Of a DNA stretch of 64,000 nucleotides, positions 26,756 through 35,461 are shown piece by piece. A program made the position numbers and the translations under genes. The stretch's first letter is position 1. Each line of letters opens with the position of its first letter. Source of the DNA: Enemella dayhoffiae (GTDB lineage Bacteria; Actinomycetota; Actinomycetes; Propionibacteriales; Propionibacteriaceae). The stretch spans positions 1 to 64,000 of the forward strand of contig NZ_NMVQ01000045.1 in assembly GCF_002250625.1 (NCBI RefSeq), given 5' to 3'. The notes under the pieces were generated by a model, which was given only the letters and a program-made list of their open reading frames with translations, did not search any database and had not been told where the DNA came from.

Positions 26756-26855
26756 GCGGACAATCACCTCGACCCGGCCCGGATCGGTTTGAGCGGGGGG
26801 TCAGATGTCTTAGAGTTTGCGTGCTGTTGGCACTTCCCCCTGCACTGGAGGCTCG

Positions 26856-29066
26856 ATGTCTCGCTGGATGCGCCGCGCCGCGCTGTCGCTGTCCGCGTCG
26901 GCCGCAGTCCTGATCGGCCTTGCCGGGCCGGCTGGGGCGGCGCCGCCGCAACCCGGCCCCACCGATCCAGCGACCGAAGGACTGCGCCAGGCGGTACGCC
27001 GCGACCTCGGCCTCGAGTGGCCGGAATACCTGGCCCGCGGGGCCGCCGCCGAGCGTGCCGCCGACCTGGACCGTCAGCTGCAGGGCACCCCGGACTATCG
27101 CGGGGTCGCGCTGCAGGGCGCCGAGGTGGTGGTCACCGGAGGCGGGGACAAGGTGGACCGCGAGGCCCGCAACGCCGGCGCCCGGGTCACCGCCAACGGG
27201 CGCAGGGCGGCCAGCGCCGAACCGATGCTGCAGAAATACCTGGCCGAGGTGGGCGCCGAGGGACTCGGGTCGGTGCAGGTCACCGCCGACGGTTGGCTGA
27301 TCACCGTGGCCCGCCCCGACCAGCCGCGCAACACCCGCTCCGGCCGCAGCGTCAGCCCGCAACAGTTCGCGGCGCAGAACCCGGGCGTACGCCTGCAGGC
27401 CGGGGGGCCGGCCACGCAGCGCGCCGACGTGCTGGGCGGCCAGGGCTGGGAGGGTTTCTGGTCCGGGGGCGGCCTCCGTTGCTCGATCGGGTTCGCCGGG
27501 TTCGACCCGGCCGGTCGCCAGGAGATGGTGTCCGCGGGTCACTGCACCCGGGACAACCAGGTCAACCAGGCGAGGTTGGAGGCGGATCCGGGGGTCTTCC
27601 TCGGCAACCGGACGTTCGGCCAGTTCGGCGGTCCCAACAACGCCAGCAACACCCAGAGCACCGCCGGGACCGACCTCAGCATCTTCGTCGGGCCCAGCCA
27701 GGACCTGCTGCCCATGGTCGACGCCTACGGCTGGCGCTCCAAGGTGACCGGGGTGTCCAACGCCGTCGTCGGGGCGCCCGTCTGCACCGCCGGGCGTACC
27801 AGCCGGAAGTGGAGCTGCAGCACCATCGACGGGGTGGGCGCGTTCGCGGTGGGCGGTTTCCGCGGGGACGACGACGTGCGCTATGTGAACGGGTTTGGAT
27901 CCCAGCTGACCACCCTGGGCGGTGATTCGGGCGGATCGATGGTGTCCGGGCTGAAGGCGATCGGCGTGCTCAGCGCGGGGGACAACTACAACGGCGTCGA
28001 GTACTCCTACGGGGCCAACCTGGACACCTTCCGGTCGATGGGCCATCAGGTCGAGCTCTGGCTGGCCAACCCGGTTGCCAACGCCGGTGCCGCCGGTGGC
28101 CGCATCACCGGCCGGGTCCCGGTCGACGGGGGAGACACCGTGGCCCCCAACACCCAGGTCCGGATCAGCGCCAACGGCACGACCAGCACGGTGCCGGTCG
28201 CCGCCGACGGCACGTTCAGCTTCACCGCTCCCGGCAACGGCAGCCAGGTCACTCTGACCACCATCAACGGATACAGCGGCTCGGGCGCGGCCACCTGGAC
28301 CCCGGCCAACGGCACCCCCACCGGGGAGCGGATCTGCGGCCTGCGCGACGGCGGCTGCTTCCAGCCCTACGCCGGCGGGATCATCTACTGGTCTTCGGCC
28401 GGCAGCTACCTGGTCAAGGGCGCGATCTACAACAAGTGGTCCGCGCTCGGCTGGGAGAAGGGCCAGCTCGGCTATCCGACCTCCGGGGAGATCTGCGGGC
28501 TGCGCGACGGCGGCTGCTACCAGCGCTTCCAGGGCGGGCGGATCTATTGGTCGCCGAGCTCCGGCGCCCACCCGGTCTGGGGCCTGATCGCCGACAAGTG
28601 GGACAGCACCAACTATGAGTGGGGCACCCTCGGCTATCCGACCGGCGACGAGAACTGCGGGCTGCGCGACGGCGGCTGCTTCCAGACCTTCCAGAACGGG
28701 ATGCTGTACTGGAGCCCGCGCTCGGGCGCCCACTGGATCCGCGGCGCCATCCAGGACCGGTGGGCCCAGCTGGGTTGGGAACGCTCCAGGTTTGGCTATC
28801 CGCTCTCCGACGAGAACTGCGGACTGCGCGACGGCGGCTGCTATCAGGTGTTCTCCGCCGGTGCCATCTACTGGTCCCCGCGCACGGGCGCCCAGCCCGT
28901 CGAGGGCGCGATCTGGGACTACTGGGGCCGCAACGGTTGGGAGGGCGGTCGCTTCGGCTACCCCGTCGCGGGGGAGAGCTGCAGCGGTACGCCGACCATG
29001 CGCTGCACCCAGCCCTATCAGGGCGGGACCATCACCTGGACCGCCAGCGGGGGCGCCGCCGGCTGA
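26856..29066 (+). CDS. Secreted chymotrypsin-like (S1) protease with five LGFP repeats
   Basis: This 736-aa exported serine protease has a signal peptide ending near PAGAAPP. A propeptide of about 150 residues (including a streptogrisin-prodomain-like ITVARPDQPRNTRSG) is followed by the catalytic domain. Its triad is His229 in VSAGHCT, Asp273 in GTDLSIFVG and Ser358 in LGGDSGGSM. A short beta domain (PNTQVRISANGTTSTVPVAA) leads to five LGFP repeats with CGLRDGGC inserts. The ATG at 26856 was chosen with TGGAGG 5-6 nt upstream. It is probably autoprocessed outside the cell and retained on the wall by the repeats. Confidence 0.93.
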   Translation: MSRWMRRAALSLSASAAVLIGLAGPAGAAPPQPGPTDPATEGLRQAVRRDLGLEWPEYLARGAAAERAADLDRQLQGTPDYRGVALQGAEVVVTGGGDKVDREARNAGARVTANGRRAASAEPMLQKYLAEVGAEGLGSVQVTADGWLITVARPDQPRNTRSGRSVSPQQFAAQNPGVRLQAGGPATQRADVLGGQGWEGFWSGGGLRCSIGFAGFDPAGRQEMVSAGHCTRDNQVNQARLEADPGVFLGNRTFGQFGGPNNASNTQSTAGTDLSIFVGPSQDLLPMVDAYGWRSKVTGVSNAVVGAPVCTAGRTSRKWSCSTIDGVGAFAVGGFRGDDDVRYVNGFGSQLTTLGGDSGGSMVSGLKAIGVLSAGDNYNGVEYSYGANLDTFRSMGHQVELWLANPVANAGAAGGRITGRVPVDGGDTVAPNTQVRISANGTTSTVPVAADGTFSFTAPGNGSQVTLTTINGYSGSGAATWTPANGTPTGERICGLRDGGCFQPYAGGIIYWSSAGSYLVKGAIYNKWSALGWEKGQLGYPTSGEICGLRDGGCYQRFQGGRIYWSPSSGAHPVWGLIADKWDSTNYEWGTLGYPTGDENCGLRDGGCFQTFQNGMLYWSPRSGAHWIRGAIQDRWAQLGWERSRFGYPLSDENCGLRDGGCYQVFSAGAIYWSPRTGAQPVEGAIWDYWGRNGWEGGRFGYPVAGESCSGTPTMRCTQPYQGGTITWTASGGAAG

Positions 29067-29209
29067 GCTGGCCTGCCGGGTGGTCAGTCTGTACGCCCGC
29101 TGGAGGGTTTGATCACGGTTCGGTCGCGTGGGCCAGGCGCCGCCCTGACTGGCGGTAGATATGGGGCCATCCGCGCCAGCCCCTTGGCGCCACCCCTGAG
29201 GAGTTCCTG

Positions 29210-30805
29210 ATGAAGTCCCGCCTGTCCTTCGTGGCGCTGGTGGTCACCCTGCTCTCGCTGGCCTCACCGGCGTACGCCGCCCCCACCGGTGCCCCGGCCG
29301 CCAGCACCCCGACCGCCAGCACCCCGACCCCGTCGGTCAGCCGCACCGCCACGCGGACCCCCTCTCGCGCCTCGACCGCCCCGACCCGGTCGGCCACCCC
29401 CGCCACCGTGCGGGAGACCCCGGCCGCGACCGCTGAGCCGAGCGCAACCCCGACCCCCACGCCCAGCCCGGTCCCGGCCCACCCGATCGACGCCCGGTAC
29501 GCCGAGTTGGGCGGACCGACCGGTTTCCTCGGCCAGCCGGTCAGCGAACTGAGCTGCGGTTTGCCGGGCTCCGGCTGCATGCGCCACTACGCCGGCGGTT
29601 CGATCTACTGGACCCAGGCCACCGGCGCCCAGTTCATCCGCGGCGCCATCTTCCAGCGCTGGGGCGGCAAGGGCTGGGAGACCGGCTTCCTCGGTTACCC
29701 GACCTCGAGCGAGGCCTGTGGGCTGATCGAGGGCGGCTGCTACCAGTTCTTCCAGGGCGGGGCGATCTACTGGTCCCCCACCACCGGGGCCACCATCGTC
29801 CGTGGCGCGATCTTCCAGCGGTGGGCCCAGCACGGCCTGGAGCGGAGCTTCCTCGGCTATCCCACCGGTGAGGAAGTGTGCGGACTGCGCGATGGCGGCT
29901 GCTTCCAGGCCTTCCAGCGTGGGTCGATCTACTGGTCCCCGCCCAGCGGCGCGCAGGCGGTGGCCGGTGAGATCATGAACCACTGGGGTCGCAACGGCTG
30001 GGAGGGCGGCTTCCTGGGCTACCCGACCACCGCCGAGGTGTGCGGGCTGCGTGATCGCGGCTGCTACCAGGGCTTCCAGGGCGGCTCGATGTACTGGACG
30101 CCGAACTTCGTCGCCCACGCCGTGCGCGGGATGATTCTGGACAGCTGGCACCGGATGGGCCGGGAGAACAGCTCGTTGGGCTATCCGAGTGGTGACGAGC
30201 GCTGCGGGCTGGTCGGCGGTGGCTGCTTCCAGGCGTTCCAGGGCGGCTCGATCTACTGGTCCCCGGCCACCGGGTCCCAGCCGGTCAAGGGCGAGATCAT
30301 GAACCACTGGGGCCGCAACGGCTGGGAGGGCGGCCACCTCGGCTACCCGACCACCGGCGAGTTCTGCGGACTCCGCGGCGGTGGCTGCGGACAGCACTTC
30401 CAGAACGGCTCCATCTACTGGCAGGCCCGCTTCGGCGCCCACTTCGTCAAGGGTGCCATCCGCGATGAGTGGTCGCGCCAGGGGTGGGAGCAGGCTTTTG
30501 GCTATCCGCTGACCGACGAAATCTGCGGTCTGGTGCGGGGAGGATGTCGTCAGATGTTTGAGGGCGACGACGCCATCTACTGGGCGCCTGCTGTCGGCGC
30601 GAACGCGGTCCCGCGGGAAATGATGGCCGCATGGGGTCGATACGGCTGGGAGACCGGCCGCCTCGGCTACCCAACCTCTCGGGCGTGGGTCCAAGATGCC
30701 CCCAACGGGGCGAACCGCGCTTGGCAGGACTTCCAGGGGGGAACGATCTCCTTCGTCTTCCACGACTGGAACAACATGGGAGAGCCGAGTTTTACCTGGC
30801 GCTGA
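29210..30805 (+). CDS. Secreted LGFP-repeat protein
   Basis: This 531-aa exported protein has no enzyme domain. The signal peptide ends at SPAYAAP. A Thr/Ala/Pro-rich segment of about 65 residues follows, and the rest is eight LGFP units (for example [20 protein letters not shown] then FQRGSIYWSP). Each unit carries a paired-Cys insert, so intra-repeat disulfides are likely. LGFP modules bind the cell envelope in corynebacteria. The ligand in this organism is unknown. The ATG has GAGGAG 8 nt upstream. It follows the protease gene by 143 nt and shares its repeat type. Confidence 0.9.
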   Translation: MKSRLSFVALVVTLLSLASPAYAAPTGAPAASTPTASTPTPSVSRTATRTPSRASTAPTRSATPATVRETPAATAEPSATPTPTPSPVPAHPIDARYAELGGPTGFLGQPVSELSCGLPGSGCMRHYAGGSIYWTQATGAQFIRGAIFQRWGGKGWETGFLGYPTSSEACGLIEGGCYQFFQGGAIYWSPTTGATIVRGAIFQRWAQHGLERSFLGYPTGEEVCGLRDGGCFQAFQRGSIYWSPPSGAQAVAGEIMNHWGRNGWEGGFLGYPTTAEVCGLRDRGCYQGFQGGSMYWTPNFVAHAVRGMILDSWHRMGRENSSLGYPSGDERCGLVGGGCFQAFQGGSIYWSPATGSQPVKGEIMNHWGRNGWEGGHLGYPTTGEFCGLRGGGCGQHFQNGSIYWQARFGAHFVKGAIRDEWSRQGWEQAFGYPLTDEICGLVRGGCRQMFEGDDAIYWAPAVGANAVPREMMAAWGRYGWETGRLGYPTSRAWVQDAPNGANRAWQDFQGGTISFVFHDWNNMGEPSFTWR

Positions 30806-31051: not shown

Positions 31052-32260
31052 GTGGTTCACACCTGGGTCTGGATCGCCACCGTGGCGGGCATCGTCGCGC
31101 TGCTGTTGTTCGACTACTTCTTCCACGTCCGCAAGGCGCACACGCCGACGCTCAAGGAGTCGGCCACCTGGTCGGCGCTCTACGTCGGGATCGCGCTGGC
31201 ATTCGGTGTGGGCGTGTGGATCTTCGGCGGCATGGACATGGGCCAGGAATACTTCGCCGGCTATGTCACCGAGAAGGCGCTCTCGGTGGACAACCTGTTC
31301 GTGTTCCTGATCATCATGGCCAGCTTCAAGGTGCCGCGGGCCGATCAGCAGAAGGTGCTGCTCTTCGGCATCGTGTTCTCCCTCTTCGCCCGGACCGGGT
31401 TCATCTTCATCGGTGCCGCGCTGATCAACACCTTCGCCTGGGTGTTCTACATCTTCGGACTGATCCTGATCCTGACCGCGGGAAACCTGCTGAAGAAGGA
31501 ACACGACGACGAGGACGACGAGGCGGACAACTTCATCATCCGGGTCGCCCGCAAGCTGGTCCGCACCTCCGACAAGTATGACGGCGACAAGCTGTTCACC
31601 GAGGTCGACGGCAAGCGGGTGCTGACCCCGATGCTGCTGGTGATGATCGCCATCGGTGGTACCGACATCCTGTTCGCTCTGGACTCGATCCCGGCCATCT
31701 TCGGGCTGACCCAGAACATCTTCATCGTGTTCACCGCGACCGCGTTCTCGCTGCTCGGCCTGCGCCAGCTGTTCTTCCTGATCGACGGATTGCTCGACCG
31801 ACTGATCTACCTCTCCTACGGACTGGCCGCGATCCTCGGCTTCATCGGCGTGAAGCTGATCCTGCACGCCCTGCACGAGAACAACGTGCCGTTCATCAAC
31901 GACGGTGAGCACGTCACGGTGGTCGAGGTGTCCACCCAGGTGTCGCTGGCGGTCATCATCGGCGTGCTGGTGATCACCGTTGTCGCGTCCCTGCTCAGCC
32001 CCAAGGGGCGCGCGCTCAGCCTGGCCAACAACGCCCGACGGCACGCGCGCGAATACCTCGACACCGACTACGAGACCGACCCGGAGCTGCGCGAGGAGAA
32101 CTACCAGAAGCTGCTGCGCGAGGAGGAGCAGATCCGCGCCCTGTCGGACAAGCAGCGGCACTGGGTGCGCCAGGAGGCCGAGATCATGGAGGAGATCCGC
32201 AGGGCGCACACCGAACATGACGGCCACGCGGACTCGGTGCCCCCCACAATCGAGAAGTGA
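31052..32260 (+). CDS. TerC-family membrane protein
   Basis: This integral membrane protein (402 aa, about nine hydrophobic segments) belongs to the TerC family, which is linked to tellurite resistance and to manganese or calcium handling. The family core is clear: MGQEYFAGYVTEKALSVDNL, VLLFGIVFSLFARTGFIFIG, then IGGTDILFALDSIPAIFGLT, with conserved acidic residues in membrane helices. A charged loop (KKEHDDEDDEADN) and a charged C-terminal tail are cytoplasmic. The GTG start has AAGGGAGA upstream. The stop overlaps the GTG of the next frame (GTGA). The 170-nt upstream region shows no riboswitch that I can recognise. Confidence 0.92.
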   Translation: MVHTWVWIATVAGIVALLLFDYFFHVRKAHTPTLKESATWSALYVGIALAFGVGVWIFGGMDMGQEYFAGYVTEKALSVDNLFVFLIIMASFKVPRADQQKVLLFGIVFSLFARTGFIFIGAALINTFAWVFYIFGLILILTAGNLLKKEHDDEDDEADNFIIRVARKLVRTSDKYDGDKLFTEVDGKRVLTPMLLVMIAIGGTDILFALDSIPAIFGLTQNIFIVFTATAFSLLGLRQLFFLIDGLLDRLIYLSYGLAAILGFIGVKLILHALHENNVPFINDGEHVTVVEVSTQVSLAVIIGVLVITVVASLLSPKGRALSLANNARRHAREYLDTDYETDPELREENYQKLLREEEQIRALSDKQRHWVRQEAEIMEEIRRAHTEHDGHADSVPPTIEK

Positions 32261-33507
32261 ACCTCGTACCCCTTGTCGGCGGGGGCCTGGCCGGGTTGAT
32301 CTGCCTGGTCGTCGCCTGGGTCGCCTGGCGGCGCAGCGCCGATCAGATCTTCGCCGGGGTCACCCCCGGTCTGTTCCCGCTGCCCGGGCAGCCGCAACGG
32401 GTGGAGCGGGTGCGCGGTGGCCGGGAGTACGCCGGTCCGGTCGCCGTGCAGTTCCAACCCCCGCGGGACCTGGCGCCCGGTCTGGTCGGCACCGTTGTCG
32501 ACGGGCACGCGGAGCTGCGTGACGTCACCGCCACCATCATCGACCTTGCGGTACGCGGATTCCTGCGGATCGAGGCGGTACGCCCGGAAGGCGCGCAAGG
32601 TGCACAGGGCAACCAGGCCAAGCAGGGAAAGCAGGACTGGGTGCTGACGGCGCTGCCCAACCCGCCGGCGGACGCCCGCCCGTTCGAGCACGACCTGCTG
32701 CGAGCGCTCTTCCGCACCGGCCCGCGGGTGCGCATGTCCGACCTCCAGGCGAGTGCCGGCAAGGCGATGCGGGACGCCCAGGTCGAGCTGTACCGCCAGG
32801 TGGTGGCCAACGGCTGGTATCCGCGACACCCCGCCGCAGCCGGTGGGCGACTGCGGATCTGGGGCGTGGTGCTGATGGTGCTCGGGCTGATCGCCACCAT
32901 CGCGGTCGCCGCGTTCGCGGTCATCGGTCGGCTGGACTGGTGGGCCATCGCCGGGCCGGCGCTCACCCTGCTCGGCGGGCTGGTGCTGCTGCTGGTCGGC
33001 CGCCGGGTGCGGGTCGGGCGTACCGCAGCAGGAACCGCGATCACCGTGCAGGCATGAGGATTCAAGCAATACCTGGCCACGGCCGAGGCGGACCAGATCC
33101 GCTTCGAGGAGGCCTCGGAGGTGTTCAGCCGCTATCTGCCCTATGCGATCGTGTTCGGCGTCGCCGAGCACTGGGCGAAGGTGTTCGGCGAGGTGGCCAA
33201 GCGCTACCAGGAGTCGCTCGGGGGCGACTGGAGCGCCGGCGACGTGCTGTTCGACCTGATGTGGTTCGACCTGGTCTCCGGGTTCGACCTGTTCGGCGTG
33301 GGGATCCCCGACGCGGAGCTGTTCAACCTGCCTGAGGTGTTCGGCGGGATGGACGCCGCCGGCGCCGGGGTTCTCGGTGACGCGGGTGACGTGATCAGCG
33401 GATTCACCGATGGGGTTGGAGATTTCGTCGACTCCGCCAGCGGGTTCGACCTGCCCGACCTGGGCGGTTGCGACCTCGATCTCGGCGGCTGCGACGGCTG
33501 CGGCTGA
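32257..33507 (+). pseudogene. DUF2207 membrane-protein gene interrupted by an in-frame TGA
   Basis: One continuous frame of 417 codons is broken only by TGA at 33055-33057. Before it: a membrane helix (LAGLICLVVAWVAWRR), LPGQPQRVERVRGG, the block LRDVTATIIDLAVRGFLRIE and two more helices. After it, in the same frame: GFKQYLATAEADQIRFEEAS, FSRYLPYAIVFGVAEHWAKV and a Gly/Cys/Asp-rich tail, which are the normal continuation of DUF2207 proteins. Family members usually have Arg at the broken position, so CGA to TGA is the simplest change. The usual extracytoplasmic N-terminal domain is also missing. The start is a GTG coupled to terC. It could be a real pseudogene, a sequencing error or a split protein. 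Confidence 0.8.
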
Positions 33508-33552: not shown

Positions 33553-33713
33553 GTCGCGATACGCCGGGCCGAAGGCACTCGGTTATCCCACTTCAGATGG
33601 ACAGGTTCCAGGTTCGAATCCTGGCCACCCCTCGGGGTGTGTAGCTCAACTGGCAGAGCGGTTTGCCGGGCCACCGGCTCTCCGGGCGCCACCCCATGTC
33701 CGACGTTCGCGAC
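33553..33713 (+). ncRNA. Candidate Y RNA (YrlA-like) with a permuted tRNA-like module, copy 1
   Basis: The 22 nt at 33566-33587 (GGGCCGAAGG then CACTCGGTTATC) match the conserved 5' strand of vertebrate Y RNAs at 17 of 22 positions as I recall human Y1. Predicted folding: lower stem 33553-33569 with 33698-33713 (GTCGCGA/TCGCGAC, ACG/CGT, CGGGC/GTCCG); internal loop CGAA (33570-33573); upper stem GGCACTCGG (33574-33582) with CCGGGCGCC (33682-33690). The loop holds a T-arm (CCAGG-TTCGAAT-CCTGG, 33608-33624), an acceptor-like stem (CCACCC/GGGTGT) closed by CTCG, a D-arm (GCTC-AACTGGCA-GAGC, 33644-33659) and a GCCGG/CCGGC hairpin. This order is a tRNA permuted at the acceptor end, as known for YrlA RNAs, which bind Ro60/Rsr. 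Confidence 0.8.
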
Positions 33714-33725
33714 ACCCCAAACCGT

Positions 33726-33829
33726 GGGGTGCGGGCCGATTGCGGTCGGTTATCTGGCGATTGAGGTTCGATTCCTGATCCGCTGCCCAGGCAGCGGAAG
33801 GTCCGGTCGCACCAACCTGCCCGCACCCC
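33726..33829 (+). ncRNA. Candidate compact Y RNA, copy 2
   Basis: This second copy starts 12 nt after the first. Its signature at 33733-33754 (GGGCCGATTG then CGGTCGGTTATC) matches copy 1 at 18 of 22 positions. The lower stem GGGGTGCGGGC (33726-33736) pairs perfectly with GCCCGCACCCC (33819-33829). Next come the internal loop CGA, TTG/CAA, a 3-nt bulge CAC, and the upper stem CGGTCGG (33743-33749) with CCGGTCG (33803-33809). The apical part has an AGG-TTCGATT-CCT arm (33764-33776) resembling a T-arm and a hairpin CCGCTGC/GCAGCGG (33780-33797), but no D-arm. It ends 48 nt before the Ro60 start codon and may be processed from a shared transcript. Confidence 0.75.
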
Positions 33830-33877
33830 TTCATCCTGCCCAACCACCCTGCCCAGACCGTCGTGAGGAGGACGATC

Positions 33878-35461
33878 ATGGTCGACATCCTGAAGCTGAT
33901 CAACCTGCGGCGTACGCCCCAGTCGCTGCGCGCCGACGCCCGACAGCAGCCCAACGCTGCCGGCGGGTTCACGTTCGTCCTCGACGACGTGGCACGGCTG
34001 CGTCGGTTCCTGATCCTGGGCACCGAGGGTGGCACCTACTACACCTCGGCCCCCGAGCTCACCTTGGACAACGCCGAGGTCGTGCTGCGGCTCTGCGCCG
34101 AGGATCCGGATTCGTTGCTGGCAACGATTCGCGAGGTCTCGGTGGGCGGTCTGGCGCCGCGTCAGCAGCCGACCCTGTTCGCGCTGGCCGCGGCCACCGC
34201 GCGCTGCGACGAGCCGTATCGTCGTCGGGCGTTGGCGATGCTGCCCGAGATCGCCCGGACCGGAACCCAGCTGTTCCTGTTCGCCGGCTATGTCGAGCAG
34301 TTCCGCGGCTGGGGTCGTGGGCTGCGTCGCGCGGTCGCGGCCTGGTACGCCGACCAGCCGCTGCAGAAGGTGGCCTACCAGGCGGTGAAGTATCGCTCTC
34401 GTGAGGGCTGGACCCACCGCGACCTGCTCCGGCTGTCGCACCCGCGCACCACCGACCCGGCCCGCCGGGCGCTGTTCGAGTGGGTGGTGCGCGGTGGTGA
34501 GCCGACCGAGGTGGCCGACGCGCTGCCGCAGGTCACCGGCTTCGTCGCCGCCCAGCGCGCCGACACCGACGAGCTGGTACGCCTGATCGACCGCCACGCG
34601 CTGACCTGGGAGATGCTCCCGGATCACGCGCTGACCCAGCCGCAGGTGTGGGATTCCCTTGTCCGCAAGGGGATGCCGATGACCGCGCTGCTGCGTCAGC
34701 TCGGCCGGTTGACCGCTCTCGGGGTGCTCGCCCCCGGGGCGGAGGTGACCGAGCTGGTGGTGGCGCAGCTGGTGGACACCGAGCGGATCCGCTCCGCCCG
34801 GGTGCACCCGCTGCAGGTGCTGATCGCCCAGCGCACCTACGCCACCGGACACGGTCTGCGCGGGTCGCTGACCTGGCGGCCGGTACCGCAGGTGATCGAC
34901 GCGCTCGAGCAGATGTTCGAGCGGGCGTTCACCACGATCCGGCCGACCGGCAAGCGGTTGCTGCTGGCCATCGACGTGTCGGCGTCGATGGACTGTGGGC
35001 ACCTCGCCGGATCCGCCATCACCCCGCGGGAGGCGGCCGCGGCGATGGCGATGGTCACCGCGCGGACCGAGTCGGCGTACCAGATGGTGGGGTTCTCGCA
35101 CCGCCTGGTGCCGCTGCCGATCTCCCCACGGCAGCGGATGGACCACGTCGTCACGGCGATGCGGTCGGTGCGGATGGGCGCGACCGACTGCGCGTTGCCG
35201 ATGCAGTTCGCGCTGCGTCGCAAGCTCGCGGTCGACGCGTTCGTGGTCTTCACCGACAACGAGACCTGGTTCGGGGACGAGCACCCGCACCAGGCGCTCC
35301 AGCGCTACCGCACCGCGACGGGCATCCCGGCGCGGCTGGTGGTGGTCGGCATGACCGGAACCCTTTCCACGATTGCCGATCCCGACGACGCGGGAATGCT
35401 GGACGTGGTCGGTTTCGACGCCTCGGCGCCGTCGGTGATGGCCGACTTCATCCGCGGTTGA
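33878..35461 (+). CDS. rsr: Ro60/Rsr ortholog, TROVE domain with C-terminal vWA
   Basis: This ring-shaped RNA-binding protein (527 aa) binds Y RNAs and misfolded or single-stranded RNA ends. Residues 10-340 are the alpha-helical TROVE repeats (KVAYQAVKYRSREGWTHRDL and LRLSHPRTTDPARRALFEWV). Residues 360-527 form a vWA domain with an intact metal site: DVSAS (Asp366, Ser368, Ser370), Thr436 in GATDCALPM and Asp460 in VFTDNETW. The C-terminus IADPDDAGMLDVVGFD is strikingly like animal Ro60. The ATG at 33878 was chosen with GAGGAGG 8 nt upstream. In known bacteria Rsr works with exoribonucleases such as PNPase through a Y RNA tether. The two RNA candidates upstream fit that. No rtcBA genes are nearby. 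Confidence 0.94.
   Translation: MVDILKLINLRRTPQSLRADARQQPNAAGGFTFVLDDVARLRRFLILGTEGGTYYTSAPELTLDNAEVVLRLCAEDPDSLLATIREVSVGGLAPRQQPTLFALAAATARCDEPYRRRALAMLPEIARTGTQLFLFAGYVEQFRGWGRGLRRAVAAWYADQPLQKVAYQAVKYRSREGWTHRDLLRLSHPRTTDPARRALFEWVVRGGEPTEVADALPQVTGFVAAQRADTDELVRLIDRHALTWEMLPDHALTQPQVWDSLVRKGMPMTALLRQLGRLTALGVLAPGAEVTELVVAQLVDTERIRSARVHPLQVLIAQRTYATGHGLRGSLTWRPVPQVIDALEQMFERAFTTIRPTGKRLLLAIDVSASMDCGHLAGSAITPREAAAAMAMVTARTESAYQMVGFSHRLVPLPISPRQRMDHVVTAMRSVRMGATDCALPMQFALRRKLAVDAFVVFTDNETWFGDEHPHQALQRYRTATGIPARLVVVGMTGTLSTIADPDDAGMLDVVGFDASAPSVMADFIRG

Follow-up and report, generated by a model that had tools for sequence, protein, structure and literature searches.

The locus lies within the window, the 64,000-nucleotide stretch of DNA analysed here, in an Enemella-like genome of the Propionibacteriaceae. 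Its protein-coding part is a Ro60 (Rsr) gene on the plus strand (33878-35461). The 527 amino acid product contains the TROVE and Ro60 vWA domains at full length (Pfam PF25045, E 1.2e-66; PF05731, E 5.9e-43). Its best match in the PDB is the Rsr protein of Deinococcus (2nvo, E 2.9e-121), the Xenopus Ro60 structure is also matched at full length, and the nearest named Ro60 is that of Enemella evansiae (77% identity). In the alignment the equivalents of Xenopus Ro K170, R174 and H187 are kept, which we take to be the residues that bind Y RNA and misfolded RNA. A likely ribosome-binding site, AGGAGG, is found at 33866-33871. Two predicted structured RNAs precede the gene on the same strand, giving the order RNA 1, RNA 2, Ro60. 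RNA 1 (33553-33713) ends 164 nt upstream of the ATG at 33878 and RNA 2 (33726-33829) ends 48 nt upstream of it. A consensus scan of the locus found no sigma-70 promoter and no terminator, so the transcript ends of both RNAs are taken from their helices. This gives lengths of 161 and 104 nt, in agreement with the approximately 160 and 105 nt proposed in an earlier note on this DNA.

The surroundings contain some minor features. Upstream of RNA 1 (32257-33507), a DUF2207 gene looks split in two. The ORF at 32257-33057 covers profile positions 6-200, the ORF at 33121-33507 matches positions 227-247 weakly, and the stop codon at 33055-33057 separates them. Neighbouring secreted-looking proteins are encoded at 26817-30805 (ORFs 26817-29066 and 29210-30805) and have many 'LGYP...CGLRDGGC' repeats in common, which are LGFP-like by eye. 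In two Enemella species (L004 and L005), a AATAAATCGGATGCGGCCCGG-like stretch that is not clear in the window lies 5' of RNA 1. It is possibly a promoter or regulatory element.

The earlier note had read the two elements as Y RNAs, with helices around a CGA internal loop, next to the gene for their Ro60 partner in an actinobacterium. Covariance models, Pfam and PDB matches support this. The Y RNA signature of GGGCCGA followed by GGTTATC is present exactly where the note had placed it (33566-33587 and 33733-33754). Searched as CCGAN7CGGTTATC with at most one mismatch, the motif matches the window only at the two Y RNA sites, with 0.14 matches expected and two matches in 1 of 100 shuffles. However, a looser form has 20 matches genome-wide that are mostly due to chance, and so little weight can be put on the motif by itself. 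Strict motif counts also miss degenerate copies, and covariance models were therefore used. These models, R1 for the YrlA type and R2 for a type with a T arm only, were made from other actinobacteria with all Enemella left out. R1 matches RNA 1 with 84.9 bits (E 2.6e-18) and RNA 2 with 45.3 bits (E 8.5e-9), R2 matches RNA 2 with 72.7 bits (E 1.8e-12) and RNA 1 with 35.3 bits, and neither scores above 12.5 bits elsewhere in the window. This structure search with Enemella-free models is the decisive test, and both predicted RNAs are found by it.

A search with Y RNA and YrlA models had been suggested as a check, and with the Rfam models the outcome is different. The vertebrate Y_RNA model has no match in the window even at E <= 5, and membership of that family was rejected. 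The YrlA model (RF02553) matches the tRNA-like part of RNA 1 only, with 31.6 bits (E 8.4e-5) against a gathering score of 69. None of the actinobacterial relatives tested reaches this gathering score, and Arachnia relatives are matched at full length with up to 52.5 bits. The nematode ceN72 model matches RNA 2 (E 4e-4), again below its own gathering score. Rfam thresholds pass over actinobacterial Y RNAs, a tRNA finder labels some of them tRNA-Asp, and R1 and R2 detect them reliably beside Ro60.

RNA 1 is, according to the R1 match, its fold and Rfam YrlA, a putative YrlA-type Y RNA. The 5' strand of the lower stem, the predicted Ro60-binding part, occupies 33553-33569 and pairs with 33698-33713 in the MFE fold. 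It forms about 15 pairs, interrupted by one mismatch and one bulge, and shows covariation (helix 1). Next comes the conserved CGA strand of the internal loop (33570-33572), the CG of which is invariant in alignment A1. The upper stem (33574-33582) makes eight of nine possible pairs with 33682-33690, as indicated by the fold and the covariation of helix 2. Between the strands of the upper stem, the fold and relatives point to an anticodon-like mini-arm, CCA-CUUCAGA-UGG (33588-33600; 7-nt loop 33591-33597). Rfam, the R1 model and covariation place a T arm at 33608-33624 (CCAGG-TTCGAAT-CCTGG), with U 33607 as the equivalent of tRNA residue 48. An acceptor-like hairpin at 33625-33639 (Rfam, fold and covariation) is closed by a loop and has no free CCA end. 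It is followed by U8 A9 and the D arm (33642-33659, GCTC-AACTGGCA-GAGC; Rfam, R1 and covariation), in which A 33649 is the equivalent of residue 15. The fold also contains an extra hairpin, GCCGG-GCCA-CCGGC (33665-33678), that relatives generally do not have. The single-sequence fold of RNA 1 is only slightly better than that of shuffles (z -1.72).

The T, acceptor-like and D arms of RNA 1 are thus present in permuted order. From 5' to 3' the parts are the mini-arm, a variable-loop-like stretch, the T arm, the acceptor-like hairpin, U8 A9 and the D arm, which is the order in a tRNA cut open between the D arm and the anticodon arm. The earlier note was right that these are Y RNAs and missed this tRNA-like domain of RNA 1. 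One tertiary contact can also be followed. Residues 15 and 48 form the Levitt pair of the tRNA core, and their equivalents are A-U in RNA 1 of the window. In 80 YrlA-type relatives they are G-C in 43 and A-U in 32, which is 75 of 80 against 39.8 expected, and 0 of 20,000 permutations gave pairing as high. RNA 1 therefore matches a circularly permuted tRNA in its secondary structure and in one tertiary pair. Because the tRNA-like part is matched by YrlA and the 15-48 pair covaries, RNA 1 very probably folds like tRNA. The crystal structure of YrlA described by Wang in 2018 (cited in PMC8394870) reportedly shows a tRNA-like fold.

RNA 2, also supported by a fold z of -4.30, is differently built. 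Its lower stem (33726-33736) forms 11 bp with 33819-33829 in the fold and has changes on both sides in relatives. CGA separates it from the upper stem. The upper stem of the R2 model (33741-33749) forms nine of nine pairs with 33803-33811. In the single-sequence MFE fold the 5' strand of the upper stem is paired otherwise, and comparative evidence favours the Y form. Relatives show that TTATCTGG (33750-33757) is conserved and marks the RNA 2 type. A T-arm-like hairpin (33763-33778; R2 model and covariation) and a GC-rich hairpin found by folding (33780-33797) follow, the latter missing from one Enemella genome (G057). RNA 2 has no D arm and the T arm is its sole tRNA-like part, which makes it a Y RNA but not one of the YrlA type. 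Therefore, the idea of a plain duplication of one RNA does not hold. The tRNA mimicry of RNA 1 is complete, that of RNA 2 is limited to the T arm, and this pair of RNAs recurs in the same order in Mycobacterium and Nocardia (e.g., L060, L065, L067, L080, and L090).

Changes that break the helices in homologous loci, named in the earlier note as grounds for giving up the proposal, were looked for in relatives. The helices persist in both RNA types. For the RNA 1 type 97.6% of cells are paired and 19 of 32 pairs have changes on both sides; the corresponding figures for the RNA 2 type are 94.9% and 10 of 21. Neither shuffles nor slid registers approach the paired cells and covariation scores of either type (0 of 500 shuffles for covariation). 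Members of alignments A1 and A2 were picked partly by stem pairing, which biases the paired percentage of the Y stem upward. Pairing played no part in the choice of the T, acceptor-like and D arms, the anticodon-like arm set or the 15-48 pair. In a separate control, 104 of 138 motif instances have a 3' partner, against 3.1% in shuffled downstream sequence.

The RNAs also keep company with Ro60. In the Propionibacteriaceae, Ro60 is present in 30 of 198 genomes. At E <= 1e-6, R1 has full-length matches in 27 genomes. Each of these carries Ro60, and none of the 168 family genomes without Ro60 has such a match. The 27 are all the carriers with upstream DNA on the contig; in the other three (G072, G022, and G080) this DNA is missing because Ro60 is at a contig edge. 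Partial R1 matches in genomes without Ro60 (model positions 27-105) were discounted because they resemble adjacent tRNA genes, a T arm and then a D arm. Two weak full-length matches that were fetched (L119 and L120) proved to overlap tRNA genes. Both RNAs thus have a two-helix Y stem kept by compensatory changes, and co-occur with Ro60 in genomes. An Enemella relative has an orphan YrlA-type Y RNA at a distance of 1.9 Mb from its Ro60 (L118:4971-5112, G057:C1:1426970-1427111; 68.5 bits). The orphan has a 4-bp arm with a tRNA-Asn-like loop, CUGUUAA.

We are confident that the locus encodes a bacterial Ro60 ribonucleoprotein, with tandem Y RNAs and a same-strand Ro60/Rsr gene just downstream. 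What if the structures are instead a cis-acting leader of the Ro60 mRNA, such as an autoregulatory Ro60-binding site, and not separate stable RNAs? They are on the same strand, end 48 nt before the start codon and have no recognisable promoter or terminator between them and the gene, and their lower Y stems could serve as a cis binding site for Ro60. However, a leader has no need for a tRNA-like core with a covarying 15-48 pair, the orphan copy is far from Ro60 and the Salmonella RNAs come after rsr. In addition, free Y RNAs are known from the same family (PMC11277228). This makes a leader improbable as the whole explanation; a leader role and a separate-RNA role could go together. It is much harder to see the elements as degenerate tRNA genes or tRNA pseudogenes. 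ARAGORN does call RNA 1 of E. evansiae tRNA-Asp, and the T and D arms are canonical. Nevertheless, the arm order is permuted and no acceptor end is free, ARAGORN reports no tRNA in the window, and the Y stems covary and track Ro60. Least credible are chance hairpins, which a GC-rich genome and the z of only -1.72 for RNA 1 might suggest but which, like pseudogenes, are already contradicted, in this case by the matches to outside models (E 3e-18 and 2e-12) and the covariation (0 of 500 shuffles).

How might a Ro60-Y RNA particle from this locus work? By analogy with Deinococcus (PMC4726728, PMC8394870) and Salmonella, the lower Y stem would bind the outside of the Ro60 ring and control entry to it. 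The tRNA-like part of RNA 1 would dock an effector, most likely the exonuclease PNPase, and the particle might thereby pass structured or damaged RNA to PNPase. RNA 2 could be a second adaptor or gate, differently equipped. The locus shares an orthologous Ro60 and the Y stem with the Rsr-Y RNA-PNPase particle of Deinococcus radiodurans (RYPER).

Bacterial Y RNAs have been described in Deinococcus, Salmonella, M. smegmatis and "possibly many more" (PMC4726728), and the tRNA-like type is known as YrlA (PMC8394870). RNA 1 is like the YrlA RNAs of Salmonella, phages and M. smegmatis in having a Ro60-binding stem and permuted T, acceptor-like and D arms beside rsr/Ro60. It differs in its low, partial Rfam match and its extra mini-arm, and the window RNAs come before Ro60 with no rtcBA. 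Salmonella likewise has two tandem Y RNAs adjoining rsr, in the arrangement rsr-yrlBA-rtcBA (PMC7790460), but there they lie after rsr and before RNA-repair genes. No RtcB was found in the window's genome, and a link of the Ro60 locus with RtcBA was dropped. Closer to home, Ro60-Y RNA particles have been immunoprecipitated from Propionibacterium propionicum, a member of the same family (PMC11277228, citing Greiling 2018). Among the members of this family are human commensals with Ro60 particles that antibodies of lupus patients recognise (PMC11277228). Two genomes of P. propionicum, now Arachnia propionica (L056 and L057), also have Y RNAs before Ro60, but with four predicted matches each against two in the window's genome. 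Vertebrate Y RNAs and nematode sbRNAs have the two helices around CGA and the GGUUAUC but, unlike RNA 1, no tRNA-like domain.

The suggestion of the earlier note that the layout is undescribed is unsupported. Tandem Y RNAs by Ro60 are published for Salmonella, as are the P. propionicum particles, and tandem copies are the rule in the actinobacteria surveyed here. Motif counts in 62 Ro60 loci with enough upstream sequence were zero in 2, one in 15, two in 22, three in 10 and four in 13, so at least two copies are present in 45. The commonest layout (9 loci) is that of the window, with a YrlA-type RNA first, a T-arm-only RNA second and Ro60 last, and one of the other Enemella loci (L005) also has both RNAs. 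The window locus thus belongs to a bacterial kind of RNA-quality-control locus that is already known, and is a clean example of it, ordinary and well formed yet missed by current annotation. In 2014 Chen reportedly found more than 250 bacteria and phages with likely Y RNAs close to Ro60, each having at least one RNA that is tRNA-like.

The least ordinary feature of the locus is the anticodon-like arm, which is absent from the displayed Rfam YrlA consensus. Of 76 distinct YrlA-type segments lying between the Y motif and the T arm, phage segments included, 51 can form a 7-nt loop closed by a stem of 3 bp, against 3 to 19 for each of the other loop lengths from 4 to 10. The second loop position is T in 46 of the 51. 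Among members picked by position and CT only, all three stem positions are paired in 29 of 35. The stem covaries (CCA/TGG, TCC/GGA, CCT/AGG, TCA/TGA), with a score of 0.351 against 0.142 and 0 of 500 shuffles reaching it. Most actinobacterial and phage YrlA-type RNAs have such a hairpin of 3-4 bp with an anticodon-like 7-nt loop, CU-NNN-RA. Thirteen of 37 distinct loops are identical to anticodon loops of tRNAs of the window's own genome, where column shuffling predicts 6.0 (p ~1e-4). The loop of the window itself, CUUCAGA, has no equal among the tRNA loops found in that genome.

The arm probably helps the RNA 1 domain to pass as tRNA in folding or before modification enzymes and binding partners. 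A bolder idea, which we think rather unlikely, is that actinobacterial and actinophage YrlA-type RNAs are complete four-armed permuted tRNA mimics. The arm with its C-U-N-N-N-R-A loop would stand in the sequence place of the anticodon arm, and its species-variable 'anticodon' would often equal a genuine tRNA loop. Perhaps it lures anticodon-loop nucleases or modifying enzymes as a decoy or bait, both in cells and in those phages that have Ro60 together with Y RNAs. Either role, decoy or contact for a modification enzyme, is a guess. If the arm is functional, the question of what purpose bacterial tRNA mimics serve would become sharper, and the decoy idea is testable in harmless relatives.

Two further observations concern tRNA calls and phages. 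The E. evansiae Y RNA called tRNA-Asp by ARAGORN is at L004:1197-1274, and at other Ro60 loci (L045, L049, and L057) there are calls of tRNA-Asp or tRNA-Glu in which the loops are of the Y RNA type, so false tRNAs may be listed there by annotation pipelines. Copies of Y RNAs in phages have been noted (PMC7765460). Here, Ro60 is encoded on 57 viral contigs (L167-L223). Of these 46 were searched, and in 36 at least one Y RNA match, sometimes several, lies upstream of Ro60; several carry the anticodon-like arm.
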